From positions 1 to 64,000 of the forward strand of contig NZ_QUZK01000051.1 in the NCBI RefSeq assembly GCF_003410055.1: a stretch of 64,000 nucleotides of DNA, written 5' to 3'. Origin of the DNA: Wenzhouxiangella sediminis. Its GTDB lineage: Bacteria > Pseudomonadota > Gammaproteobacteria > Xanthomonadales > Wenzhouxiangellaceae. The position numbers and the translations under genes were made by a program. Positions 23,794-42,227 of the stretch are shown here, piece after piece (position 1 is the stretch's first letter; each line of letters begins with the position of its first letter). Under the pieces are notes generated by a model. It searched no databases. It was not told where the DNA came from and was given only the letters and a program-made list of their open reading frames with translations.

Positions 23794-26700
23794 TCACTGG
23801 AACCCCTGGAATCGGTCGGAGAAGATCGCGTCCTCGACGCTGTCGGACAAACCGATACCGCTGACCGGGATGACGTAGGTCCCGTTGGGATCATCGGAGC
23901 CGATCCGAACCTCGGCATCGGTCCACGTGCCTGCCGCCTCGGGGACGAAGCGCAGGGAAACGATACAGGTCTCACCGACATTCAGCGGCGGCGAGCTGGA
24001 GGTGCACGAGCCGCCGTCGAATACGAAGTGCAGATCGTCATCACCCCACAGCGTCGTGAAGCCCATCTGCAGCGGCTCATCGCCGACGCTGGTCACGGTG
24101 ATCACCACCGAGTCGCTGGACTGGCCGACCTGGACCTCACCGAAGTCGATCGAGGCCGGACTGAACTGGCCGAAGGGGCCGTCGAACTGATAGCGAACCA
24201 GGACTTCGGCACTGTTGTTCGAGGGGTCCAGATCGAATGCGGCACTGCTGACCGTGGCGCCGACACCGGTGTCCTCATGAAAGCCGGGCGTGCCGTCGAT
24301 CACCAGCACTGCCGTTTCGCCCGGCTGCAGCGACCCCACGGTCCAGAGGCCCGAGTTCGGCTCGTAGTCGCCGCTCGAGGCGAAATAATCCTGGGGGATG
24401 AACCCGCCCGACAGGGGCGTCACCTGCACGCTGACGGCATCCGCCGCGCGCGCGCCGTTGTTGACGACCTCCACGGTCATCGTCAGGGCATCGCCCATCC
24501 CCGCCCATTCGGCGTCAGCCTCGATGCTCACGGCCAGGTCGGTGAACGGATCGACCTCGGCGAAGGCCAGGTTGTTGAGCGGCTCGGGGTCTTCCGAGAA
24601 GCTGCTGGCCGAAGCCGAGCTCATGAAACCGCCCGAGCCGTTGACCAGGGCCGCAACCTCCAGCAGCGCGCCCTCGCCCACGTCGAGGCTGCCCAGCTGC
24701 CACTGGCCGGTGGCCGAGTTGTAGCTGCCGAGGCTGCTGTTGTGGCCCTGGTAGCTGTAGCCGGTGGGCAGCAGATGGGCCACCTCGACGCCATCGGCCG
24801 ATTCGGGGCCGAGGTTGTCGACCAGCACTGCGAAGGTCACCTGATCGCCCGGCAGCGCCGCGGCGGGCGAGACACTGTGAACCAGCTTGAGGTCGGAGCG
24901 GCTGCGCAGGACATCAGGGGTCAGCGTGGCCACGTTGTTGTTCAGGTTCGGATCGAACTCCGGGGCGAAGATCTGCGCCTCGATCGCATACGGTGTCTGT
25001 TGCGTCACCTGCAGCTGCAGGCGCAGCTGCGCTCCGGCGCCTGGACCGCTGCCGGCCAGGTCGTCGAGCTTCCACAGCATGTCGCCGGGCAGGAAGGTGC
25101 CCTGATCGGAGTCGTCGAAGTCGATCAGGGTGTATCCCGCCGGCAGATCGATGGTGACCGCGGGCATCCCGGCCAGGTCGGGACCGGCGTTGCCGGCCAG
25201 CACATCGACGATCACCACATCGCCCGGTTCGACCGGGTCCTGATCGATGACCAGCTTGAGCGACAGATCGGCCGTGTCCACGGCCGGCGGGATCTCGCCG
25301 TAGAGTCGCTGGATCGGGGTGACCAGGGTTGATGAACTCTGGGCGTTTCCGATCCGATACTCGATGCGCACGTAGAACTTGCCCGGCAGACCTGCAAAAC
25401 CGTCCAGGCGCCAGTCATCCCCGTCGCGGCTCATCCAGCCGCCCCCGGCGGCCGGCACGAAGTCGTCCGCGTCGCAGCAGGTCTGCGAGACCAGCACCCG
25501 GGGTGTGCCGAGCACGGCCGGCGCAGAGCCGAAACCGGTCAGCCGATCCCAGACCAGTCGCTCAGGCTGGCCCGGCGTGCCCCAGACGATGCGCTGGCGT
25601 AGCGGCAGGCCGTCGGGATTGGCGAAGCGATGCAGGTGGTCATTTATTCCCAGCAATACCCGACCATCAAGGGTCATTTGCAGGGCAGTATTATCACGGA
25701 TTAACTCAACACTACCTGCGGACCACGGCTGTACGCCCGGCCACAAGGCATTGCCGGCGTGATTCAGCAGGGCAAGATGCTTGCTCTCCTCGTTCAACAG
25801 GAAAGTTCCAGCGGCCAAATAACCAGAACCTCTCTTCTGGATCGAAATAACCCTGCTACGATCAAGCGAAGCGCCGCCTCCTTCGAAAGGACTGGCCACG
25901 GTATGGTTGCCGTTCTGATCAATCAGCGACCAACCGTACTGGTTGCCACCGAAGGAGTATTGGATTCTCCCTCCCACAACGATGTGATCGTCGATGACTA
26001 TTGATCGGCAGAGGTGCCGCCCAGCACCAATGGCAAGCGGCGGATCAAAGCTTGACCAGAGCTGTCCGCTTGGGGTGAAGCGGGCGAATATTAGTCTATC
26101 TTGGCTGGCATAACCTTCGCCACATGTGTACACCCAACCATCGTCATCCACCGCCAAACTATTGAGAGAAGCCTGCGACTCGGTCCAACTGGGTGAGAAA
26201 TTGGTATCCAGGCTGCCATCCGGGTGCAAGCGCGCCAGGTCGAGACGCGCCTGTTCGTTGACCTCAGAAAACCGCCCACCGATCAGAATCTTGCCGTCAT
26301 CGAAAATATGGATCGAATTGACAAGGGGGGAATTATCTCCTCCGACTTCCGCATTGAAACTGGTGTCCAGACTACCGTCCGGGTGCAGACGGGCCAGCCG
26401 GGAGCGTGGCGTGCCATTGACAGTTTCAAACCACCCGCCAACGAGGATGCGACCATCGCGTTGTACGGCGATAGCATTTATTGTCACGCCGTCGATCAAG
26501 GGCGCAAAGCTGCTGTCCAGGCTGCCGTTGAGATGCAGGCGCGCCAGAGATCTGCGGCTGGTGCCGTTGATATGGGTAAATACGCCCCCGACCAGAATGC
26601 GACCGTCGGCTTGCAGTGCGATTGTTTTCGGCGAGAGGAGGCCCGACGGGGCAAACTCCACCTCCGCCTGCGCTTGATCGATCCTCCCCTGAGCATCCAG

Positions 26701-27801
26701 CCGTGCCAGGCGATTCCGACCCAGGCCGGTAATCTGATTGAAGGCCCCACCGAGCAGCACTGCGCCATCGTCCTGAACCAGCACCCTGCGTACTGCAGCG
26801 TTGGGGTTGACCAGTGGGGCAAAGCCGTTGTCGACGCCGCCGTCTTCGTTCAGGCGGGCGATTCGGCTGCGCGGGCCCACGCCGCTGGTGAAATCGCCGC
26901 CGATGAGGGCGCGGCCGTCGGGCAGAAGATCCAGCGCGTAGACCGGGCCGTTCAGGCTGGGCGGCTCGTAGGCCCCATCCACGCTGCCGTCGGCGTTCAG
27001 GCGCAGGACAAAGCCATCACCGTCGACCTCGCCGGCAACCAGGATGCGGCCGTCGTCCTCGATCTGCAGGGCCTGGACCGTGCGCACACCGCTGGCCAGG
27101 CCGGCTGCCTGGAAACTGTTGTCGACGGAACCGTCCTCATTGAGCCGGTACAGGCGCCGGGCCGGAATCTGTCCGGTGATGCCGATGCTGCCGGCCACCA
27201 GCAGCTTGCCGTCGTCCTGCACCGCCAGGGCGCGAACGCTGCCGCTGAAATCCGGCGGCACGAAGCCCGTATCGAGCTGGCCGTTGTAGTTCAGCCGGGC
27301 CACGCCGGTTCGGGCCTGGCCACCGACGTTGGCGAAACTGCCACCGATGTAGATGCCGTAATTGCCGGTCATAGGGTCGGGCTTTTCGGCCAGGGCATGG
27401 ATATCGCCATCGGGATTCGAACCGGACCAGGGCGAAAGCGGCGCACCGTCGCCGTCCAGGCGCTGGATGCGGCCGTTGAAACTGCCGGCAACGACCAGAT
27501 CGGTACCGCCGGCCAGCAGGCTGACGTTCACGTCTCCACCGCTCAGGTTCGGCCCTGCGAAGAACGAGGTGTTCCGACCGGCCGCGTCGAGCATCGCCAG
27601 GCGCGAGCGCGGTGACCCGGCAATGCTGGTGAAGTTGCCGCCCACCAGGGTGCCGTAGGGCGTGCTGGTCAGGCTGTAGACCATGCCGTTGGGATTGGGC
27701 TGGTAGCCGTCGTCCTCGGTCAGCGCCAACACCGGGCCGGCCCAGGCCAGCAGCCCGGTCAGAAGCAACCCCATTACAACCTGCCATTGCTGTCTATTCA
27801 T
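23794..27801 (-). CDS. Large secreted delta-60-repeat / DUF11 / choice-of-anchor protein with IFSDRF C-terminal tail
   Basis: A 1,335-residue secreted protein. The start at MNRQQWQ has GGGAGAG 6 bp upstream and yields a signal peptide ending near VLALT. Residues about 30-800 hold many delta-60 repeats, with the recurring core DGRILVGG...RSRLARL..DGSLD, a likely beta-propeller. Residues about 880-1200 hold three DUF11-like Ig domains (VDVLAGNAGPD, FAVLVDNLGPESADG, MTVEVVNNGARAAD). Then comes a choice-of-anchor D domain (IDFGEVQVGQSS). The chain ends IFSDRFQGFQ, matching the tails of two other secreted proteins here. Likely surface-attached or released. The candidate operator at 27885 lies 84 bp upstream of the start. 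Confidence 0.88.
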   Translation of the reverse strand: MNRQQWQVVMGLLLTGLLAWAGPVLALTEDDGYQPNPNGMVYSLTSTPYGTLVGGNFTSIAGSPRSRLAMLDAAGRNTSFFAGPNLSGGDVNVSLLAGGTDLVVAGSFNGRIQRLDGDGAPLSPWSGSNPDGDIHALAEKPDPMTGNYGIYIGGSFANVGGQARTGVARLNYNGQLDTGFVPPDFSGSVRALAVQDDGKLLVAGSIGITGQIPARRLYRLNEDGSVDNSFQAAGLASGVRTVQALQIEDDGRILVAGEVDGDGFVLRLNADGSVDGAYEPPSLNGPVYALDLLPDGRALIGGDFTSGVGPRSRIARLNEDGGVDNGFAPLVNPNAAVRRVLVQDDGAVLLGGAFNQITGLGRNRLARLDAQGRIDQAQAEVEFAPSGLLSPKTIALQADGRILVGGVFTHINGTSRRSLARLHLNGSLDSSFAPLIDGVTINAIAVQRDGRILVGGWFETVNGTPRSRLARLHPDGSLDTSFNAEVGGDNSPLVNSIHIFDDGKILIGGRFSEVNEQARLDLARLHPDGSLDTNFSPSWTESQASLNSLAVDDDGWVYTCGEGYASQDRLIFARFTPSGQLWSSFDPPLAIGAGRHLCRSIVIDDHIVVGGRIQYSFGGNQYGWSLIDQNGNHTVASPFEGGGASLDRSRVISIQKRGSGYLAAGTFLLNEESKHLALLNHAGNALWPGVQPWSAGSVELIRDNTALQMTLDGRVLLGINDHLHRFANPDGLPLRQRIVWGTPGQPERLVWDRLTGFGSAPAVLGTPRVLVSQTCCDADDFVPAAGGGWMSRDGDDWRLDGFAGLPGKFYVRIEYRIGNAQSSSTLVTPIQRLYGEIPPAVDTADLSLKLVIDQDPVEPGDVVIVDVLAGNAGPDLAGMPAVTIDLPAGYTLIDFDDSDQGTFLPGDMLWKLDDLAGSGPGAGAQLRLQLQVTQQTPYAIEAQIFAPEFDPNLNNNVATLTPDVLRSRSDLKLVHSVSPAAALPGDQVTFAVLVDNLGPESADGVEVAHLLPTGYSYQGHNSSLGSYNSATGQWQLGSLDVGEGALLEVAALVNGSGGFMSSASASSFSEDPEPLNNLAFAEVDPFTDLAVSIEADAEWAGMGDALTMTVEVVNNGARAADAVSVQVTPLSGGFIPQDYFASSGDYEPNSGLWTVGSLQPGETAVLVIDGTPGFHEDTGVGATVSSAAFDLDPSNNSAEVLVRYQFDGPFGQFSPASIDFGEVQVGQSSDSVVITVTSVGDEPLQMGFTTLWGDDDLHFVFDGGSCTSSSPPLNVGETCIVSLRFVPEAAGTWTDAEVRIGSDDPNGTYVIPVSGIGLSDSVEDAIFSDRFQGFQ

Positions 27802-27884
27802 TTCCATCTCTCCCGTGCCAGCCTGGTGCTGACCTTGAACCATGAATCCCGAACGCAAACATCTCTCCGGCGGGCCGGTGCTGC

Positions 27885-27912
27885 ATGAAATCAACTTGAA
27901 AAGCGCGTGAAA
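27885..27912 (-). promoter_or_regulatory. Three-unit 11-bp direct-repeat site A (upstream of the delta-60 gene)
   Basis: On the plus strand, ATGAAA, TTGAAA and GTGAAA are each separated by 5 bp (period 11). The first two units are joined by TCAAC and the next two by AGCGC. Read toward the gene on the minus strand it is TTTCA-type. Two near-identical sites occur at 28671 and 31770. An 11-bp period is typical of OmpR/PhoB-type winged-helix binding, and such a regulator is encoded at 28851. Confidence 0.65.
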
Positions 27913-28056
27913 ATTCGTTGCTCAAGGCTCGAAGCGATCGCCGAACAGACCATCGGCCTGGAGTTCGAAAGCCCCGATCTCGGGCTGGCCGCGCCGGTCG
28001 CGGTCGAAGCCGAGCTGCCGCAGGCCAGAACGTCCAGGTTGCCGGCCGGGCTGCTG

Positions 28057-28578
28057 TTACCGGCGACATGGTGTGTTCTCCCTGGAAATGAGGATCAATC
28101 GGATGGCGGCGAAGGCCAGCAAGAGCAGGCCGAGCAGAATGCGGCCGGCATCGTGGCGCGACAGGCCGGGCTGGACCAGCGCGCGCCCGGGCCTGGATGG
28201 ATCGACATGGACGGTGATCACGGCACCGGGCAGAAAACGCCGCACGGCCTCGGCCCGGCCACCCGAGGCGCGATAGGCCGACCCGGCGAAGACCCGGCCG
28301 TCGTGAACATAGCGATAGCTGAACACCGCACGCGCGGCCAGCGGCGGCAGCCAACCCGCGCCCTGATCGAAATGCGCTTCGGTAACCTGGGCGCGCACCG
28401 GCACGGAATAGTCCGAGGGCCAATGGGACAGTTGCGGCAGGACACTCATCGCCACGAGCAAAAAGCCGCCCAGGCATGCGAGCCGCCACACGAGCAGACG
28501 GCCGGCCGGGCTGCAGCCGCGGACCATTCCCGCGCTGCCCGCGGCCGTTTCAACCCGAGTGGAGCGGGAACCCTGCAT
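28057..28578 (-). CDS. DUF3592-like membrane protein
   Basis: A 173-residue protein with two transmembrane segments (residues about 25-48 and 146-163) flanking an extracytoplasmic beta-rich domain. That domain has the family-like pattern AVFSYRYVHDGRVFAGSAYR and PGAVITVHVDPSRPGRALV. GGGAGA lies about 10 bp before the start; a second in-frame ATG 17 codons in is possible. Function unknown. The operator-like site at 28671-28698 is 93 bp upstream. The 255 bp between its stop and the delta-60 start hold site A and nothing else evident. Confidence 0.75.
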   Translation of the reverse strand: MQGSRSTRVETAAGSAGMVRGCSPAGRLLVWRLACLGGFLLVAMSVLPQLSHWPSDYSVPVRAQVTEAHFDQGAGWLPPLAARAVFSYRYVHDGRVFAGSAYRASGGRAEAVRRFLPGAVITVHVDPSRPGRALVQPGLSRHDAGRILLGLLLLAFAAIRLILISRENTPCRR

Positions 28579-28670
28579 CGTTGACGTTCTCCCGGCAAAG
28601 CGATGGACTTCGGGCCCGGCCCAGCCGGCCGAGCACTTCGGTCAGCATCTCCCGCCTGTCCTGTGCAGAC

Positions 28671-28698
28671 TTGAAATCAGCTTGAAACTTGCGTGAAA
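28671..28698 (-). promoter_or_regulatory. Three-unit 11-bp direct-repeat site B (upstream of the DUF3592 gene)
   Basis: TTGAAA, TTGAAA and GTGAAA at an exact 11-bp period, with spacers TCAGC and CTTGC. Orientation relative to the downstream minus-strand gene is the same as at sites A and C. It lies in the 272-bp divergent region before the regulator gene, so it may also affect that gene. Confidence 0.65.
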
Positions 28699-28850
28699 GC
28701 CGCTCCCTCGGGTCGAGGCATCACCCAGCGAACATGACAGCGCTGAGGTTTGATGGCAATCTGATATAAAGAAGTCCTGTCGGATTGACCATCTGTGGTG
28801 CCTGTCGCGGTCGACCAGGACCGCCCGGGCGCCTTCGTGCGGGGATACGT

Positions 28851-31748
28851 GTGAGGATCGAATTCGAGAACTTCCAGCTCGACACCGAGCAGAAGCAAGT
28901 CAGCGGGCCCGACGGCCCCGTCATTCTCCGGCCCCAGACCTTCGCCGTGCTTTGCCATCTCATCGAGCAGGCACCGGCCGTGGTCAGCCGCGACCAACTA
29001 CTCGACGCCGTGTGGGGGCACCAGGCCACCTCGGTCAGCTCGGTCGCCCAGACCATCAAGGAACTGCGCCAGGCGCTGGGCGATTCCAGCAGCGAACCGC
29101 GTCTGATTGCCACGCGCCGTCGGCTCGGCTACCAGTTCATCGCCAGCGTGCGCGCGGTTTCCGACGATGGCGAGGCGAGCGATGAGCATGACACTGCGGC
29201 CGTCATCGCCCCCCCGGTATCGGAATTGCCGGCCGATCGACTCAGCCGCTATTGGCCCTGGCCTGCGGCCGCGGCTGCCCTTGTGACCCTGCTGGTCGTC
29301 GCCCTGTGGTGGATCCAGACACCCAGCCCGGTGGGCGACCGCGGCCAGCTGCCGACCCTGGCGGTGGCCGGCATGGTCAACTCCAGCGAGGACCCGGAAC
29401 TCAACTGGATCGGACCGGCACTCGAGACCTACCTGGGACACGCCCTGGTCGAGCTGGGCGGGTTTCGCGTCCTGGCGGTCGATTCGGCCGCGGCGGCCAG
29501 CGAGTCCGGCATGGAAGGCATCGACTACCTGGTCGAGGGTCGCTACCTCAGCGCCGGGGTCGATGGCTCGCGCCTGCTGGCCAGCCTGCGCCGGCCCGGC
29601 TCGAACGAGATCCTGACCAGCCTGGAGTCGGGCCGCAGCGACTGGGATATCGCGTCGATCAGCATCGACATGGCCAACGCCATCCGCGACCGGCTCGGTT
29701 TCGCGCCGCCACCGGAAGCCGACGACGCAGCCATTCGGGCCCGGCTACCGCGCCGCCCCGCCAGCCAGCAGGCCTACTTCGCCGCAGTTCAGGCACTCGA
29801 ACGCTTCGACACGGCCGCCGCCCTGGAATCGCTCGACCGCGCCCGCGAGCACGAGCCCGACAACCCGCGTCTCGACCTGCTCAGCGCCCTGGCGCACGAA
29901 CGGCGCGGCGACCTGGCGACCGCGCGTAAGTTCAGCGAACGTGCCATGGCCGCCACCCGCCTGTGGCCGCGACGCGACCGGCTTGACATCGAGGCCACTG
30001 CAGCGATGCTGGCCTTCGACTGGCAGCGCGCCGCCGACCGCCTGCAGGCGCTGACGCAGTTCTTCCCCGACCCCGGCAGTAGCCGCCGCCTGGTCCGGGC
30101 GTTGAGCCAGTCCGGACGCTTCGACGCTGCCACCGAAGCGCTCCAGTCGCTCCGGCTCAAGCAGCCCGAGGACCCGCGACTTGCCCTGCTCGACGCCGAA
30201 CTGGCCGCACTCCAGAAGCAGCATGATCAACAGCTCGAAGCCGCACGCGAGGCCGCCGAACTGGCCACCAACCAATCCACCCCGGCGCTACTGGCCACGG
30301 CCCAGCTGTCTCAGAGCGAAGCCCTGATCGAACTGGGTGAATGGTCGGCTGCGCGCGAGCGGCTCGCCCGGCTGACCGCCGGCGACAGCGACCTGTCCGA
30401 CAGCGACCACGCCCGTGCCCTGCTGCAGCTGGCCCGACTGGAGTTTCTGCAGGGCGACCTGGAGCCGGCCCTTCAAACCGTCGATCTCGCCGAGCAGCTG
30501 TTCGAAGCCATTCCCCACCCCGTGGGCCTGGCCGAATCCGCCCTCCTTCGCGGCTCAATCCACGAACGGGCAGGTCGCCTGAACGATTCGATCGGGGCCC
30601 TGGCACAGGCCCTGACCCGCTTCGAGACCGTCGCCGACCCGCGCCGCGTGGCCCGGGCGCACGTCCAGTTCGGCAACACCCTGATGCGCGCCAACCGGCC
30701 CGACGAGGCAATCGACCACCTCCACCAGGCGGCGCGCAGCTTCCGCTCGCTGGGCGACCGCCAGGGCGAAGGCGCGGCCCTGATCAACCACGCCACCCTG
30801 CTCGCCCGTTCCGGTCGCCTGCCGGACGCCGAACCGATCTTCCAGCGCGCATTGGAAGCCTTCGAGGACGCCGGCGACCTGCGCGGACAGGCCATGGCCC
30901 TGGGCAACCTGGCCGCGATCGCCGGCGACCGCCGCGACATGACCCGTTCGATCGAGCTGGCCGAAGAGTCGTTGGGGATCTTCGAGATGCTCGGCGCCCG
31001 AACCGATATCGCCCGGGTGTCCTACAACCTGGCGCTGATCCACCGCCGCCAGGGCGAGCTGCTCAGCGCCGAGCGCCGCATCCGCCAGGCGGGCGAGGCC
31101 TTCGCCGAACAGGGTGCGGTACTGATGCAGATGCGCGCCTTGACTACCCTTGGCGCCATCCTGGTCGGCATGGGCCGCTTCGAGGAACTCGAGGCGGTCA
31201 TGCAGACCATCGAGACGCTCGACATCGAAGACCCGGCCGAGACTGCGGTGGCCCACATCGTTCGCGGCGAGCACGCATTGATCGAGGGCGACCCCGAGGG
31301 CGCCCGCAACGAATTCCAGCGCGCCCACGACCTGATGACCGGGATCAACGCCGAAAACCACATGCTGGTCACCGAAATGCACCTGGCGCGCGCCGACCTG
31401 GCGCACGGCCAGGCCGTCGCCGCCGAGCAGACCGCACGCCGCCTGGCCTTCGCCTTTGGCGAGATCCGCATGGTCAACCGCCAGATCGACACCCTGCTGC
31501 TGCTGGCCGAAGCGCTGATCGAGCAAGACCGGCACGACGACGCCGCCGGCGTGCTCGGCCAGGCCGACGAACTGCTGGTCGGCTCGCCCGATGCCGAGCA
31601 GACCCTGCGCCTCGGCCTGCTGCGCAGCCGGGTTGCCCCGCCCGAGCTGGCCCGCGAGCGCCTGGCCTGGGTCGAGGAAACCGCAAGCCGGCAGGGCTTT
31701 CTGCCGCTGATGCAGCGCGCTCGCGGACTGCTGACGAAAGTCGACTGA
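28851..31748 (+). CDS. Transmembrane winged-helix transcriptional regulator with FlgO/TolB-like and TPR domains (CadC-like)
   Basis: A one-component regulator of about 965 residues. The N terminus (about 1-97) is an OmpR/CadC-type winged helix: FENFQLDTEQKQVSGPDG, then SRDQLLDAVWG, SVAQTIKELRQALGD and RRLGYQFIA. A transmembrane helix follows at about 134-156. A domain with AVAGMVNSSEDPELNWIGPA and YLVEGRYLSAG (about 170-290) resembles the TolB-like FlgO region found in similar regulators. The rest is TPR-like repeats, probably extracytoplasmic and ligand- or protein-sensing. A GTG start at 28851 was chosen (GGGG 5-8 bp upstream, winged helix starts at once). It probably binds the three 11-bp repeat sites nearby. 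Confidence 0.87.
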   Translation: MRIEFENFQLDTEQKQVSGPDGPVILRPQTFAVLCHLIEQAPAVVSRDQLLDAVWGHQATSVSSVAQTIKELRQALGDSSSEPRLIATRRRLGYQFIASVRAVSDDGEASDEHDTAAVIAPPVSELPADRLSRYWPWPAAAAALVTLLVVALWWIQTPSPVGDRGQLPTLAVAGMVNSSEDPELNWIGPALETYLGHALVELGGFRVLAVDSAAAASESGMEGIDYLVEGRYLSAGVDGSRLLASLRRPGSNEILTSLESGRSDWDIASISIDMANAIRDRLGFAPPPEADDAAIRARLPRRPASQQAYFAAVQALERFDTAAALESLDRAREHEPDNPRLDLLSALAHERRGDLATARKFSERAMAATRLWPRRDRLDIEATAAMLAFDWQRAADRLQALTQFFPDPGSSRRLVRALSQSGRFDAATEALQSLRLKQPEDPRLALLDAELAALQKQHDQQLEAAREAAELATNQSTPALLATAQLSQSEALIELGEWSAARERLARLTAGDSDLSDSDHARALLQLARLEFLQGDLEPALQTVDLAEQLFEAIPHPVGLAESALLRGSIHERAGRLNDSIGALAQALTRFETVADPRRVARAHVQFGNTLMRANRPDEAIDHLHQAARSFRSLGDRQGEGAALINHATLLARSGRLPDAEPIFQRALEAFEDAGDLRGQAMALGNLAAIAGDRRDMTRSIELAEESLGIFEMLGARTDIARVSYNLALIHRRQGELLSAERRIRQAGEAFAEQGAVLMQMRALTTLGAILVGMGRFEELEAVMQTIETLDIEDPAETAVAHIVRGEHALIEGDPEGARNEFQRAHDLMTGINAENHMLVTEMHLARADLAHGQAVAAEQTARRLAFAFGEIRMVNRQIDTLLLLAEALIEQDRHDDAAGVLGQADELLVGSPDAEQTLRLGLLRSRVAPPELARERLAWVEETASRQGFLPLMQRARGLLTKVD

Positions 31749-31772
31749 AAGCGCGCCGACCCGGCGCGTTTT
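31748..31772 (+). terminator. Rho-independent terminator of the regulator gene
   Basis: A 10-bp stem AAAGCGCGCC/GGCGCGTTTT with a 5-base loop overlaps the stop codon. Its T-run is the first unit of repeat site C, so the terminator and the operator overlap. Confidence 0.7.
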
Positions 31773-31797
31773 CAAGCAACTTTCAAGCTGATTTCAC
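31770..31797 (+). promoter_or_regulatory. Three-unit 11-bp direct-repeat site C (upstream of the Asp-box gene)
   Basis: TTTCAA, TTTCAA and TTTCAC at an 11-bp period; the complement reads GTGAAA-TCAGC-TTGAAA-GTTGC-TTGAAA. It begins at the regulator's terminator and ends 63 bp before the next ATG. Confidence 0.65.
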
Positions 31798-31860
31798 CCT
31801 GCCGGACGCCCCACCCGGAATGATGACGACTGTTCTGTTCATCATTCCGGAGATCGCATC

Positions 31861-32991
31861 ATGACCCATCGTTCCGCATCGCTCGTTCAGCTTGTCCTGC
31901 TTGCGGCCTGTCTGCTTCCCACCACTACCACACAGGCCGGGCCCGGCAGCTGGTCAATCCACAACGTCGGCTGCGATGCCTCCCAACAGCACGCGCTGCA
32001 CCGCGACGACGACGCCACCCTGTGGGTCGGCTGCGGCACCGGCAGCAGCGGGTTCGGGCTGCACCGAAGCACCGACGGCGGTCAGAGCTGGCAGGTACCG
32101 ACGACCAACCCCGCCGGCATCATCGATACCTTTCGTGTTCACGATATCGAACGGGGCCACGACGGCGCCCTGTACCTGGCCGGGACGATCTCCGATGCCG
32201 GCACTCAATACCGCATCATCCGACTCGATACGAGTGGTACCCAACCCTACCCTGCTGAGGCCGCCCTGATCGGCGCGCCGGTGGCCGGCCTCAACGACAC
32301 CATCGGCCACTACGCCGAACTCGACAGCGGCGCAGCCCTGACCGCCTCGCAGACCGGCTGGACCAAGCTGTTCCGCCCCGACTCCACCGTCGGCAGTTCA
32401 GCCCAGGACTGGACCCGCCTGGACGGCATCGAGCCATTCACCAGCCTGATTGCCCACGACGGCGGCTTCTACGGCTCGGGCAGCCGCAACAGCGTCGCGC
32501 CGCGGATCTTCCTGCCATCCCAGACACCCGGTGCCCTGCCTTCAGATCTGGTCGAAGTGATCCTCGACCCAAGCTACGATGGCGAGCTGTGGGGCATCGC
32601 GGTCAGCAACGAGCGCGTCGTCGCCGTGGGCCGGCAGACCACCCCGACCCTGGGCAAGATCTACGTCAGCAGCGGCGACCCCTACAACCCGGCCAACTAC
32701 ACCGTGCACGAGTTCCGAGACGATGGCGACAGCTGGGCGCACGGCGTGTGCATGCGCGGCGACCGCATAGTGGTCGTCGGCCGGCGCTTCCCGTCGGGAT
32801 CACGCGCCCTGGCCTCGACCAACGGCGGCTTGAGCTTCTTCGACATCTCCCCGACAGGCTCCGGCGCCCTCCTCAGCCAGTGCGTTATCGCCCCGGATGG
32901 TGAGCTGACCGTATTCGGGTCCGGTGGCTTCATCGGCGTCTTCGACGGCCTGGTGGCGGGTGATGTCCTTTTTGCAGATCGATTCCAGTAA
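31861..32991 (+). CDS. Secreted Asp-box (BNR-like) propeller protein with LFADRF C-terminal tail
   Basis: 376 residues with a signal peptide (MTHRSASLVQLVLLAACLLP, cleavage near TQA). HRSTDGGQSW and STNGGLSFF are Asp-box (BNR) repeats of beta-propellers, and the protein is rich in short beta-strand/turn blocks. No catalytic motif is visible, so binding or a structural role is likely. The chain ends GDVLFADRFQ, matching the tails at 23.8 and 42.2 kb. The AGATCGCATC stretch before the ATG gives only a weak ribosome site. Probably controlled through site C by the regulator encoded just upstream. Confidence 0.82.
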   Translation: MTHRSASLVQLVLLAACLLPTTTTQAGPGSWSIHNVGCDASQQHALHRDDDATLWVGCGTGSSGFGLHRSTDGGQSWQVPTTNPAGIIDTFRVHDIERGHDGALYLAGTISDAGTQYRIIRLDTSGTQPYPAEAALIGAPVAGLNDTIGHYAELDSGAALTASQTGWTKLFRPDSTVGSSAQDWTRLDGIEPFTSLIAHDGGFYGSGSRNSVAPRIFLPSQTPGALPSDLVEVILDPSYDGELWGIAVSNERVVAVGRQTTPTLGKIYVSSGDPYNPANYTVHEFRDDGDSWAHGVCMRGDRIVVVGRRFPSGSRALASTNGGLSFFDISPTGSGALLSQCVIAPDGELTVFGSGGFIGVFDGLVAGDVLFADRFQ

Positions 32992-35488: not shown

Positions 35489-38464
35489 TCATTCGCTTCC
35501 GGTCTGGGAAGGCGACTCGCCAAAGTGATTGCGGTAGGCGCGGCTGAAACCGGAAACACTCGAAAAACCGACAGAATAAGCGACGTCTGAAACACTCCTG
35601 CCGTCACCCTGCAGCATCTGGCGAGCCAGCCCGAGCCGCACATCGCGAATGAACTCGCCGGGCGAACGGCCAGTCTCCCGGACCAGGCGCCGGTGCAGCT
35701 TGCTGCGCGACATGTGCATCGACTCTGCCAGGGCGGCCACCGAAAGACCACCGTGTTGCACATTTCGTTCGATCCAAGTTCGCACATCGTCGGCCAGCAG
35801 GGGTTCGGTGGTTGCCGTGGCGACGGCGCTCTCCGCAGTCGACGCCTCTGCGCCTTCCGATCGTTCACCCGCGATTGCCACGGCCGCATCGGCCCGGTGC
35901 CGCTCGCGCAGCACCTGGCTCGTCCGGCGGTCCACTTCCCGATGCAGGTACTGCTGCAGCCGAATGGCCGCGCGATGACGTCGTGCGAGCCAGACAGCCG
36001 CCAGCAGCACAATCGCTCCGATACTCGCAACGCGAACGCTCGTCCGCTCGTATAAATGAGGCGGCACCTCGATATCCATGCTCGCGACCGGACCCGACAA
36101 GCCGCTGTTGGCGTCGACGGCTGCGATTTCGAGCCGATGCCGGCCGGCCCGAACGTTGTCGAAACCCAGGTTACGGTCTTCGCCGACCTCCATCCAGGAT
36201 CCGTCGTCGAAGCGGTAGCGAAAGTAGATCTCCCCGGTCAAGCCGGGCTTGATACCGGTGATCTGCACCGAGAACACGCGTTCGCCAAGCGGCAATTCGA
36301 CGCGATTTCCGGCCGGCAGGGCGGTCCCGTCGGCCAGGCGAAGCTGCTGGATGATCACGCGCGGTGCCCCCTGGTGCTCCTCCACGACGCCTGGATCGAA
36401 TATGGCAATGCCCCCCTGGCCGGGAAACGCCAGGCGTCCGTCGAGAAGTCGAATGCCGGCGTTCTGCACACCGCCGTTGCCTTCCCGGTCGGGGAGGCCA
36501 TCGCTTTCGGTGAATACGCGCGAATAGACGCGCTCCGCACGCCCTTCGAGCACGCGCTCCAGCGACTGTCGGTGCAGCCAGAACACGCCGCTGTTGCTGT
36601 TGAACCAGAATCGTCCCTTGCCGTCGGCCAGCAGGCGATGAAGGCTGTCGGCATAGAGACCCTGACGGCTGTCGAGACAGTCGAAAACAAGCCCGGGGCG
36701 ATGCTCGCGTCGATCGGAGCGGCAAACACCGCTGTCGGCGGTTACGACCCAGAGATGGCCGCTCGAGTCCTGGTAGAGATCGCGAATCCGGTCGCTTGAC
36801 AGACCGTCACCCCGGCCGAACGCCAACACTTCACCACCGGGCGACCGGCGACGCAAACCGTCGGAGTCCGTCCCGAACCAGAGACTGCCACTCTCGGCTT
36901 GGTAAACGGTCTGCACCTGAACCCACTCCGGCAGGGCCAGCGCTTCCTGCATGCTTCGCCAGCGGCCGTCATATCGGAGCCAAACGCCGGTCTGGCTGCC
37001 GATCCAGAGTCCGCCGGAACGGTCCTCGAAAATGCTGCGCACAAGAACATTCCCGAGCACCCGGGGCAATCGTTCCGGCACTTCACATTCACCCGCCTGC
37101 ATCGTGCAGAAGCCACCCTGTCCCACCAGCACGCGCCCTTGCCGAGTGACGGTCACCGTGCCCACGACCTGCCCGGGAGAACCGGCAGCGTGAACACCCC
37201 GAACCACGCCACCGCGAATCTCGGCCAGGGCTCCCGCGCCCACGCTGGCCCAGATTGTGCCGTCTGCGCCCTGGGCCATGCCGTATACCGGACCCTCAGG
37301 CAGTCCGTGCTGCGTGGTAATCGTGTCGAATCGACGCTGACTGACCCGCCACAGCCCGTCACAGAGCGTGGCCAGCCAGACGCCGCCGGTCGAGTCGAAC
37401 GCGAAGTCCCGGATGGGGCATGGCGCCCGGACTACCGACTCGCCGTTCTCGAGCAGGTCGTACTGGCGCACCCGCCACTCTGATCCATGCGGACCGTCAG
37501 CCACCAGGCGGACGTAGCCTGCAATCGGCCCCTCGTTGACGACGCGCCATCCGTCATCGCTCGAGCGCCAGGTGCGCTCGTAGGACTGCACGATCAGTTC
37601 GCCGCCAGGGGCAAACTCCAGATCGTTGACGGTCTTGCCCTCGAAGAGGCGCAGCATACGGCCCTTGTTGCCTTCGATTCGGACCAGGCCGCCCTGCCCC
37701 CCTGCGAACACGACCCCGTCTGAATCGACCGCCAGTGCGCGAACATCACGCAGCGCAATGCCGTCTTCGGCATTCAGGATCTGCTCGACGCCGCCAATGC
37801 CGGCGCGAATTACCCTGCCCGTGCCGGTTCCTGCCCAGATGCCGCCCTCCGGGGCATCGGCAAAGGCCTGGACAGCCTCGCCCTGCAGCGCGGATTCGCC
37901 AACGCTCTGGAAACAGGCACCGCCGCAGGCATGGGCCAATCCCTGCTCGGTGCCCAACCAGAGTCGATCCCGACGGTCGAGATGAAGCTTCAGCACACGC
38001 GGGGCAGGCAACCCCTGCTCGGTCCCGGCAGCGTGAAACTCCCGGCCATCGAAGCTGGCCAGTGCGTACTGCTCGGTGAGCAGCCAGATCAGGCCATTGT
38101 CCTGCTGGATCAGGCGGGTCAGACGATTGCCGGGCAGACCCGGATGGCTGCCGGCACTGTATGTCTTGAATCGGTGACCATCGAAGCGGACCAGGCCATC
38201 GAAGGTGGCGACCCAGAGATAGCCGTGCTTGCCCATCAGCACGTCGGTCGTCCCGTTGACGGGCAGCCCGTCGGCATTGGTCCAGCGATCCAGCAGGTAT
38301 CCCTCGGACAGCCACTCCGGCCGCGCCTGCGCCGGCGCGCCGGTCATCAAATCGCAAAAGCAGATGAACAGAGCGATCAGACCGAGACGGTTGACGGGCA
38401 TGCAGAAAACGACCTGCCAGGCAAAGCGCAACATTCTACCGGCATCTACAGCAGCCGGATTCAC
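35489..38464 (-). CDS. One-component regulator: two-component-type propeller + Y_Y_Y sensor, TM helix and AraC-type DNA-binding domain
   Basis: 991 residues. After a signal-anchor region, residues about 50-720 carry 'two-component regulator propeller' repeats (ADGLPVNGTTDVLMGKHGYL, QDNGLIWLLTEQ, DRSGGLWIGSQTGVW). A Y_Y_Y domain (YFRYRFDDGSWMEVGEDRNL) and one transmembrane helix (about 805-825) follow. A cytoplasmic linker then leads to an AraC-family helix-turn-helix (SVAALAESMHMSRSKLHRRL and SDVAYSVGFSSVSGFSRAYR). There is no histidine kinase or receiver, so the propeller sensor connects directly to DNA binding. Starts at 38464, 38434 or 38401 are all possible; 38401 gives the cleanest signal peptide. 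Confidence 0.88.
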   Translation of the reverse strand: MNPAAVDAGRMLRFAWQVVFCMPVNRLGLIALFICFCDLMTGAPAQARPEWLSEGYLLDRWTNADGLPVNGTTDVLMGKHGYLWVATFDGLVRFDGHRFKTYSAGSHPGLPGNRLTRLIQQDNGLIWLLTEQYALASFDGREFHAAGTEQGLPAPRVLKLHLDRRDRLWLGTEQGLAHACGGACFQSVGESALQGEAVQAFADAPEGGIWAGTGTGRVIRAGIGGVEQILNAEDGIALRDVRALAVDSDGVVFAGGQGGLVRIEGNKGRMLRLFEGKTVNDLEFAPGGELIVQSYERTWRSSDDGWRVVNEGPIAGYVRLVADGPHGSEWRVRQYDLLENGESVVRAPCPIRDFAFDSTGGVWLATLCDGLWRVSQRRFDTITTQHGLPEGPVYGMAQGADGTIWASVGAGALAEIRGGVVRGVHAAGSPGQVVGTVTVTRQGRVLVGQGGFCTMQAGECEVPERLPRVLGNVLVRSIFEDRSGGLWIGSQTGVWLRYDGRWRSMQEALALPEWVQVQTVYQAESGSLWFGTDSDGLRRRSPGGEVLAFGRGDGLSSDRIRDLYQDSSGHLWVVTADSGVCRSDRREHRPGLVFDCLDSRQGLYADSLHRLLADGKGRFWFNSNSGVFWLHRQSLERVLEGRAERVYSRVFTESDGLPDREGNGGVQNAGIRLLDGRLAFPGQGGIAIFDPGVVEEHQGAPRVIIQQLRLADGTALPAGNRVELPLGERVFSVQITGIKPGLTGEIYFRYRFDDGSWMEVGEDRNLGFDNVRAGRHRLEIAAVDANSGLSGPVASMDIEVPPHLYERTSVRVASIGAIVLLAAVWLARRHRAAIRLQQYLHREVDRRTSQVLRERHRADAAVAIAGERSEGAEASTAESAVATATTEPLLADDVRTWIERNVQHGGLSVAALAESMHMSRSKLHRRLVRETGRSPGEFIRDVRLGLARQMLQGDGRSVSDVAYSVGFSSVSGFSRAYRNHFGESPSQTGSE

Positions 38465-41057: not shown

Positions 41058-42227
41058 ATGCCCCCTGCTAAGCGCCCCTTACCCCGGCAATTCCCCGCGC
41101 TTTCGGCCTTGGTGCTGGTCACGTTCGCCCTGACAGTCGGTCCGGCCCTGGCCCAACAGGGCGGCGGCAGCGTCAGTCTCGGAACGGCAAGCGGCGCGCC
41201 CGGCACCACGGTGTCCGTCGCATTCGAGTTCGACAACACCGAAGACGCCGACGTACTCGAAGCCCGCGCCCGCATCCAGGGCATCGATGCCTTCAGCGCG
41301 GTCGACGTTGGAAATCTCTGCGACTCGTCTGCCGCCCTGATCGTCAGTTGCGTGCTCAACGATACGAACCGACTGGTCGTATCCGCCGCGAACCTGTCGG
41401 GCACTCCGATCGCCTCGTTCACCGGCACGCTAGAACTCAGCATTGCGCCCGATGCCCCGGGCGGCACCGATGTCTTGCTGGAATGGAATGCGCCCCAGGA
41501 TCAGGATCTGCTGTTCACACCGAGCGCCAGCGTCGACGGCCTGGTTTCGATCATCAGCGACGGGCCGCAGGTCGACCTCTCACCGTCATCTCTGGATTTC
41601 GGCGACATCGAAGCCGGCCAGTCCAGCCCGGCCCGGACCGTCCATGTGAGCAACAGCGGCAACGCGGACGGCTTGCAGATCAGCACCGTATCGACTGCAA
41701 GCGCCGATTTCGCCATCAGCCAGGATGACTGCGCATCGACCAGCCTGGCGCAGGGAGAATTCTGCTCGGTCCAGGTTGTCTTTGCGCCCACCACCGACGG
41801 CGCCCTGAACGACTCGCTGTCGGTTGCGACCAATGTCGGCACCATCGCCGCTTCCCTGACCGGAACCGGCACTGCGGCGGGCCTGGCCCCCACCCCGGCA
41901 CCCGGAACGATCGATTTCGGCGTGGTCGGCGTCGGCGACAGCGCCACCGTGGACGGGCAGTTCACCAATGACGGGAGCGCGCCCCTGGACATCGACTGCA
42001 GCCTGGCACCGGCCGATGAGAACTTTCAGACAGTCCCCGTTCCCCTCAGCTTCTCCGATGTCGCACCTTCGGACAGCGTCGACTTCACGCTTACGTTCAC
42101 GCCGACCAGCGGCGAGGAGCAGACCGCCACGATCACTTGTCAATCGAACGCGCTCGACCTGCCCGAATTCGAATACCAGCTGAGCGCGCCCGGCCTGTTC
42201 ATCTTCTCGGACCGCTTCGAGCCATGA
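41058..42227 (+). CDS. Secreted choice-of-anchor D protein with IFSDRF C-terminal tail
   Basis: 389 residues with a signal peptide cleaved near ALAQQ. Residues about 35-165 (VSLGTASGAPGTTVSVAFEF) resemble a cohesin-type beta domain. Residues about 175-270 (LDFGDIEAGQSSPARTVHVS) and 275-375 (IDFGVVGVGDSATVDGQF) are two choice-of-anchor D/Ig-like repeats, as in the end of the giant protein at 23.8 kb. The chain ends LFIFSDRFEP, the third copy of the shared tail. Likely surface-located or secreted; no enzyme motif. The candidate ribosome site GGAGAG is about 8 bp upstream. No TGAAA repeat site was found before this gene. Confidence 0.82.
   Translation: MPPAKRPLPRQFPALSALVLVTFALTVGPALAQQGGGSVSLGTASGAPGTTVSVAFEFDNTEDADVLEARARIQGIDAFSAVDVGNLCDSSAALIVSCVLNDTNRLVVSAANLSGTPIASFTGTLELSIAPDAPGGTDVLLEWNAPQDQDLLFTPSASVDGLVSIISDGPQVDLSPSSLDFGDIEAGQSSPARTVHVSNSGNADGLQISTVSTASADFAISQDDCASTSLAQGEFCSVQVVFAPTTDGALNDSLSVATNVGTIAASLTGTGTAAGLAPTPAPGTIDFGVVGVGDSATVDGQFTNDGSAPLDIDCSLAPADENFQTVPVPLSFSDVAPSDSVDFTLTFTPTSGEEQTATITCQSNALDLPEFEYQLSAPGLFIFSDRFEP

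Follow-up and report, generated by a model that had tools for sequence, protein, structure and literature searches.

INTRODUCTION

Which protein acts at three evenly built repeat boxes that surround the gene of a predicted membrane regulator in Wenzhouxiangella sediminis, and what does it control through them? The question is raised by a 64,000-nucleotide stretch of contig NZ_QUZK01000051.1 (positions 1 to 64,000; the window hereafter), in which a short triple-repeat motif recurs before three genes on either side of a regulator that combines a winged helix-turn-helix (wHTH), a putative transmembrane (TM) helix and a long array of tetratricopeptide repeats (TPRs). The best reading of the sequence comparisons presented here is that of a one-component activator resembling ToxR, which would act through a new box on a regulon where secreted-type proteins with a C-terminal IFxDxFE tag are frequent. 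For its own family, we put the probability that the regulator acts as an activator by binding these boxes at roughly 0.8.

A mechanism of this sort is known in type, and the main added value lies in an unexpected tie of the box to tagged proteins across two bacterial families. The box, the promoter geometry and the list of targets together make the binding and the signal of the regulator directly testable, and the tag-bearing targets may open an unexplored export route.

THREE TRIPLE-REPEAT BOXES IN THE WINDOW

The window holds three copies of TGAAA-N6-TGAAA-N6-TGAAA with no mismatches, at 27886-27912 (+), 28672-28698 (+) and 31770-31796 (-); read towards the adjoining gene, all three become TTTCA-N6-TTTCA-N6-TTTCA. 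The boxes, the genes concerned and the -10 elements predicted from the alignment of class-A boxes described below are as follows:

23794..27801, minus strand: beta-propeller (delta-60/DUF5122) plus DUF11 protein, secreted-type, C-terminus VEDAIFSDRFQGFQ (Pfam, NCBIfam)
27858..27863, minus strand: predicted -10 GATGTT, propeller gene promoter, 22 base pairs (bp) beyond box 1 (class-A alignment)
27886..27912, minus strand: box 1, TTTCA-N6-TTTCA-N6-TTTCA towards the propeller gene
28057..28578, minus strand: DUF3592 membrane protein, 173 residues, two hydrophobic segments (Pfam, hydrophobicity)
28644..28649, minus strand: predicted -10 GATGCT, DUF3592 gene promoter (class-A alignment)
28672..28698, minus strand: box 2, towards the DUF3592 gene, between that gene and the divergent regulator gene
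28851..31748, plus strand: regulator, Trans_reg_C plus TPRs (Pfam, NCBIfam, structure model)
31770..31796, plus strand: box 3, towards the Asp-box-like gene
31819..31824, plus strand: predicted -10 AATGAT, Asp-box-like gene promoter (class-A alignment)
31861..32991, plus strand: Asp-box-like protein, secreted-type, 376 residues, C-terminus GDVLFADRFQ (sequence)

An initial annotation, made from the letters of the window, had described three sites of matching layout, 60-95 bp upstream of a gene and uniformly oriented towards it. Both the layout and the places are confirmed, and the distances from box to start codon (as picked by script) measure 84 bp for the propeller gene, 93 bp for the DUF3592 gene and 64 bp for the Asp-box-like gene, with identical orientation in all three cases. 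Elsewhere in the strain's own genome (3,506,010 bases in 54 contigs) there is no exact match, and the three are confined to 3.9 kilobases (kb) surrounding the regulator gene, so that the genome-wide search proposed in the annotation returned three copies and not hundreds of random ones. Allowing one or two mismatches adds three further matches, with a single match for the reversed-pattern control. At up to three mismatches, 100 dinucleotide shuffles of the window gave a mean of 0.24 matches and a maximum of 2, against 4 observed, one of which is an overlapping shifted copy with three mismatches. A TGAAA triple with N5 spacing (10-bp period) occurs neither in the window nor in the genome, and a search of the window for RNA families at gathering threshold found a single tRNA and nothing else. 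The regulon of this genome probably consists of just these three transcription units.

The earlier gene labels largely stand. DUF5122 and DUF11 matches bear out the delta-60 protein, and the DUF3592 protein was likewise recovered, while "Asp-box" goes back only to a STDGGQSW string visible in the product of 31861-32991, which has no Pfam match at E ≤ 0.001 and a weak Ycf48-type match only (NCBIfam, E 0.04). The term "secreted" refers throughout to N-terminal hydrophobic stretches and not to the output of a signal-peptide predictor.

ARCHITECTURE OF THE REGULATOR

A winged-helix regulator with a TM helix and a large TPR part had been placed in the middle of the locus, and each of these parts was found. 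The GTG start at 28851 was read by eye; residue numbers and analyses count from 28854. Trans_reg_C covers residues 22-95, the remaining Pfam matches are of TPR type apart from a sub-cut-off SNAP match, and the strongest hydrophobic segment spans residues 136-154. The structure model (mean predicted local distance difference test score, pLDDT, 85; predicted template modelling score, pTM, 0.64) presents an OmpR-type winged helix at about 1-97, an alpha/beta domain at about 168-281 and a TPR superhelix at about 302-963. A modelled helix at 138-155, of low pLDDT, coincides with the main hydrophobic peak and would provide a single TM helix between the winged helix and the sensor part. The Pfam scan, which shows a receiver domain in the same genome's PhoB-type protein, detects none in the regulator; a winged helix without a receiver is the ToxR-like arrangement.

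Compared with the PDB as a profile, the regulator matches the DNA-binding domain of ToxR best, followed by CadC, PhoB and response regulators, mixed with TPR proteins. The modelled winged-helix strands lie at 8-10, 15-18, 21-24, 85-88 and 92-95; the winged helix of the ToxR/CadC type is described as having a five-stranded sheet (PMC8517210, in part). A PDB fold search with the whole model found, among the best 50 matches listed, long helical-repeat proteins only, which is uninformative on the DNA-binding and alpha/beta parts; the same 50 matches include no CadC periplasmic domain matched to the alpha/beta part. The winged helix is the best-conserved part of the protein, with 49 of 97 positions invariant among 11 sequences versus 138 of 683 in the TPR part. 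In one single-contig relative, G026, two regulator copies lie about 8 kb apart, of which only the more diverged keeps a near-perfect box.

BOXES AND REGULATOR ACROSS THE FAMILY

The family sample consisted of 43 genomes: Wenzhouxiangellaceae together with Wenzhouxiangella isolates and metagenome bins, some labelled to class or phylum only. The regulator is present at E ≤ 1e-60 in 11 of the 43 and exact boxes, 28 in number, in 13, with the reversed pattern in 0/43. A post hoc split by the bases after TTTCA yields 24 boxes of class A and 4 of class B (TTTCAGG-type). Class-A boxes occur in 11 genomes, nine of them with the regulator (p 4.8e-6, relatedness ignored). Among the 25 good genomes (≥90% complete, ≤5% contaminated), an exact class-A box is found in 8/10 that are regulator-positive versus 0/15 that are regulator-negative (p 4.2e-5, relatedness again ignored). 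The two remaining regulator-positive genomes, G026 and G065, have one-mismatch boxes; among the regulator-negative ones, G006 has a class-B box.

Linkage points the same way. Within 6 kb of 11 of the 12 family regulator genes, which were located by protein search alone (the G022 gene, split over two contigs, being counted once), there is a box with at most one mismatch. Absence or scrambling of the sites in relatives, the outcome that the initial annotation had named as speaking against its proposal, thus did not occur. Its picture of one regulon gathered around the regulator fits these neighbouring boxes and is too narrow for the rest: of the 24 exact class-A boxes, 16 have a regulator gene no more than 6 kb away and 8 are on other contigs, and the regulon of the relatives appears to have further, unlinked members. 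The 28 class-A family sites lead to 19 complete targets, 7 cut by a contig end and 2 without a gene before it. Nine of the complete targets are tagged, counting L028 and L076, in which S or A replaces the last E/Q of the tag, and seven are of the DUF3592 type.

PROMOTER GEOMETRY BEHIND THE BOXES

The gapless alignment comprised 26 different class-A sites, none with more than one mismatch; two others had been dropped because the contig end was too near, and the five class-B sites (four non-redundant) were kept apart. T occupies +55 in 26/26 sites and A occupies +51 in 25/26, the exception being the G026 site; these are the highest columns outside -2 to 31, and the next is +56, with G in 19. The two columns would be the second and the sixth base of a predicted -10 hexamer at +50 to +55, 22 bp after the box. 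At the place expected for a -35, no hexamer resembling one is conserved among the class-A sites, columns +27 to +32 being A, A/T, G, T, T, T/G; the edge columns 28-31 are also conserved, mostly as AGTT. Counted back from the -10, the box spans about -61 to -35, which would be the geometry of a class II activator, with the box replacing the -35 at a fixed distance from the -10. Given the fixed -10 and the lack of a conserved -35, the boxes are read as putative activator sites. In class-B boxes, the -10 seemingly lies nearer, at about +37 to +42 (four non-redundant sites only).

Seven DUF3592-type promoters allow a closer look; five of the proteins score above the Pfam cut-off, L026 falls just below it, and L027 is assigned by position and resemblance. 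Their 15 core bases are 98% identical, a figure partly built in. Since the sites were picked by these core words, only the spacers and the presence of a box count as a test. Mean identity is 66% over the 12 spacer bases, which played no part in the search, versus 28-32% in the flanks; the alignment of relatives that had been suggested for the locus thus bears out the conservation of the sites.

CLASS-B BOXES AND OTHER WINGED-HELIX PROTEINS

Exact class-B boxes occur in G030, G015, G009 and G006. The strain's own genome has a one-mismatch copy with TTTCAGG units at C20:44830 (L004/L030/L094), adjoined by a paralogous wHTH regulator of 290 residues; other copies are at L070, L077, L078 and L079. 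A shorter-type Trans_reg_C gene stands beside the class-B boxes of G000, G030, G015 and G009, none was seen beside that of G006 (L079), and at L077 the gene behind the box is the wHTH gene. Proteins of the regulator's wHTH kind are numerous in relatives, with eight matches each in G013 and G022, and most of them could be assigned neither a box nor a target. The idea of one dedicated, perfect triple box for every regulator of this kind was tried and is unsupported by two scans, both of which would miss imperfect boxes. Near the remaining nine Trans_reg_C loci in this genome, no 6-mer was found in three identical copies at a period of 10 or 11, by a scan so insensitive that the one-mismatch class-B box of one of these loci escaped it; at 20 wHTH loci of relatives, several with short flanks, a search for 5-mer triples outside long frames scored only two loci, both of them the known regulator itself.

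Elsewhere in the window, 35489-38464 encodes a 991-residue protein with two-component-regulator propeller repeats and a C-terminal AraC-type helix-turn-helix. Because Pfam finds no kinase domain in it, this protein is perhaps a second one-component regulator nearby.

A SECOND FAMILY AND A C-TERMINAL TAG

Extended to 121 genomes drawn from the order, a search for the box together with the -10 pattern gave exact matches in 14 genomes and none for the reversed control. Outside the family, 18 matching places lie in nine genomes of g30, a genus belonging to a second family, and one more lies in G052. All 18 g30 places were covered, in 17 stretches, and their -10 bases belong to the search pattern and are not independent evidence. 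The IFxDxFE tag ends 12 of the 18 g30 target genes under a strict definition (p 5e-12) or 13 under a loose one (p 2e-13), versus 6 of 221 other frames from the same stretches, which are complete, uncurated longest-frame calls of at least 80 codons. At L184, L185 and L186, a Trans_reg_C plus TPR protein of about 750 residues, different from the window regulator, lies near box and target, and at L224 a wHTH gene of 319 residues adjoins the target. Since boxes also recur in this second family, where some adjoin another wHTH-TPR protein, a single regulon around the window regulator is too narrow a frame in this respect as well. A protein ending in ...PIGxWVxGxxxxGxxILxxxF was also seen by eye beside boxes of both families (L185 5235-6551, L074 3563-3862, L075 4165-4857).

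The tag is common in the own genome, where the nucleotide pattern encoding [hydrophobic]F-x-D-x-F-[E/Q] was matched 49 times and its reversed control once. Thirty tag loci were examined; a script matched the tag in 28, and 27 of these have it no more than 27 residues from the stop codon. Tags of the type IFxDRFE close many secreted-type proteins and are found in the window at 23806-23825, 27928-27947, 32969-32988 and 42202-42221. The second of these places belongs to a gene remnant on the minus strand at 27922-28050, just upstream of box 1 and noted by eye, whose last residues are DGLFGDRFEP-stop and which looks like the startless tail of a choice-of-anchor-Q-type tagged protein.

Such a tag may be a sorting signal. 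None of five tagged proteins (among eight proteins scanned) matched an NCBIfam C-terminal sorting family at E ≤ 1, and literature searches with several spellings of IFxDxFE found no mention of it. As box and tag travel together in two families though the adjoining regulators differ, it is conceivable, as a tentative extension, that the triple-TTTCA box serves as the dedicated control circuit of an undescribed export or surface-anchoring pathway, with IFxDxFE-tagged cargo and TPR regulators that monitor it from the membrane.

PROPOSED MECHANISM AND ALTERNATIVE READINGS

In the mechanism that we propose, the boxes are bound by a one-component regulator that resembles ToxR and CadC and is anchored in the membrane. 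Its OmpR-fold winged helix would lie in the cytoplasm and contact the DNA, each 11-bp unit taking up one subunit and all subunits lining up on the same side of the double helix. The box, at about -61 to -35, would substitute for the -35, and the bound regulator would recruit RNA polymerase to a weak -10 located 22 bp downstream. An outside signal, sensed by the alpha/beta and TPR part, would switch the regulator, and the targets would be secreted proteins, many with the C-terminal IFxDxFE, plus the small DUF3592 membrane protein. Control of the three window genes from the membrane, as first suggested for the locus, gains support from the linkage of boxes to 11 of 12 regulator genes, from the non-scattered distribution of the boxes and from the fixed -10, all of which are properties of sequence.

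A number of observations weigh against this reading. With one mismatch allowed, no box lies within 6 kb of the G026 copy closest to the window regulator (69%), and none was found before the propeller gene of that copy even at three mismatches; the second copy does have a box. Two genomes that are each 84% complete, G011 and G014, carry class-A boxes and no clear regulator, their best winged-helix matches showing 51% and 27% identity. G019 lacks a box in the flank divergent from its regulator gene, and the one past the 3′ end of that gene has three mismatches; exact boxes lie 5 kb away and on another contig. Three of the 19 complete class-A targets are neither tagged nor of the DUF3592 type, and nine more sites have a cut or missing target. 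A single winged-helix sequence, compared with the PDB, ranks response regulators above ToxR. In g30, a wHTH gene is present in 6 of the 17 box stretches and adjoins box or target in about four (three of the six genes helped to train the search model and were confirmed by Pfam), and four tagged genes lack a box. Finally, just 2 of the 49 tag-pattern matches in the own genome belong to boxed genes.

Some of these points bear on the strongest competitor, in which the boxes are true activator sites bound by another protein, such as a response regulator or the paralogous 290-residue wHTH protein, and the TPR regulator is a neighbour or co-target. Candidates are at hand among the 10 Trans_reg_C proteins of the own genome; a shorter wHTH regulator adjoins the class-B box of G000, G011 and G014 keep class-A boxes with no clear regulator, and most second-family boxes have no adjoining wHTH gene. 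Another binder nonetheless has to contend with the box kept near 11 of 12 regulator genes and with the lack of an exact class-A box in all 15 regulator-negative good genomes, and we regard it as improbable, at about one chance in eight. Less probable still is that the regulator acts at the boxes as a repressor or anti-silencer and not as a class II activator. Members of the ToxR family do both repress and activate, as described for MarT (PMC11358694, in part), but a repressor site needs no fixed phase, and here a constant 22 bp separates the box from the -10, with no conserved -35. Chance or a simple repeat family (a mobile element or a repetitive extragenic palindromic, REP-like, repeat) can be dismissed almost entirely, with shuffle and reversed-pattern controls near zero, boxes that share a -10 at constant distance although the genes whose start codons they precede are unrelated, and flanks that are not repeated.

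COMPARISON WITH KNOWN SYSTEMS

Searches of the literature for the TTTCA triple box in several spellings found no mention of it, and those on Wenzhouxiangella regulators, regulons or C-terminal sorting, on CadC combined with TPRs and on regulons of the target families found nothing matching this system. The regulator preferred here resembles ToxR of Vibrio cholerae, MarT and TcpP in that a single predicted TM segment comes after a winged helix of OmpR type, and in its putative direct-repeat promoter boxes. The box of TcpP is TGTAA-N6-TGTAA. The present system differs from ToxR in its three TTTCA units, repeated every 11 bp, and in a TPR superhelix about 660 residues long. For ToxR, the box TNAAA-N5-TNAAA is described, with a 10-bp period (PMC8517210, in part). 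The window sites are N6 and do not have that spacing, and the N5 TGAAA triple is absent; the two-unit TNAAA pattern itself was not searched.

CadC of Escherichia coli shares the one-component layout, and its winged helix matches that of the regulator, far below the curated cut-off of the NCBIfam model. The sites described for CadC are AT-rich, lie head-to-head and occupy a distant upstream position, -153 to -113 (PMC5430869, in part), whereas the boxes here are direct repeats ending near -35. PhoB, whose winged helix is also matched by the regulator, binds direct repeats TGTCA-N6-TGTCA with an 11-bp period (PMC11358694, in part), and the own genome contains, directly before a PhoB-type response regulator gene, a three-mismatch match with TGTCA units on the same period that looks like a Pho box. 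Unlike PhoB, a response regulator with a receiver, the present regulator has no receiver and a predicted TM helix, and its units are TTTCA and not TGTCA. An 11-bp direct repeat is nevertheless already known for the winged-helix fold, since the published TGTAA-N6-TGTAA box, with the same period as here, and the TGTCA-N6-TGTCA box share it (PMC11358694, in part).

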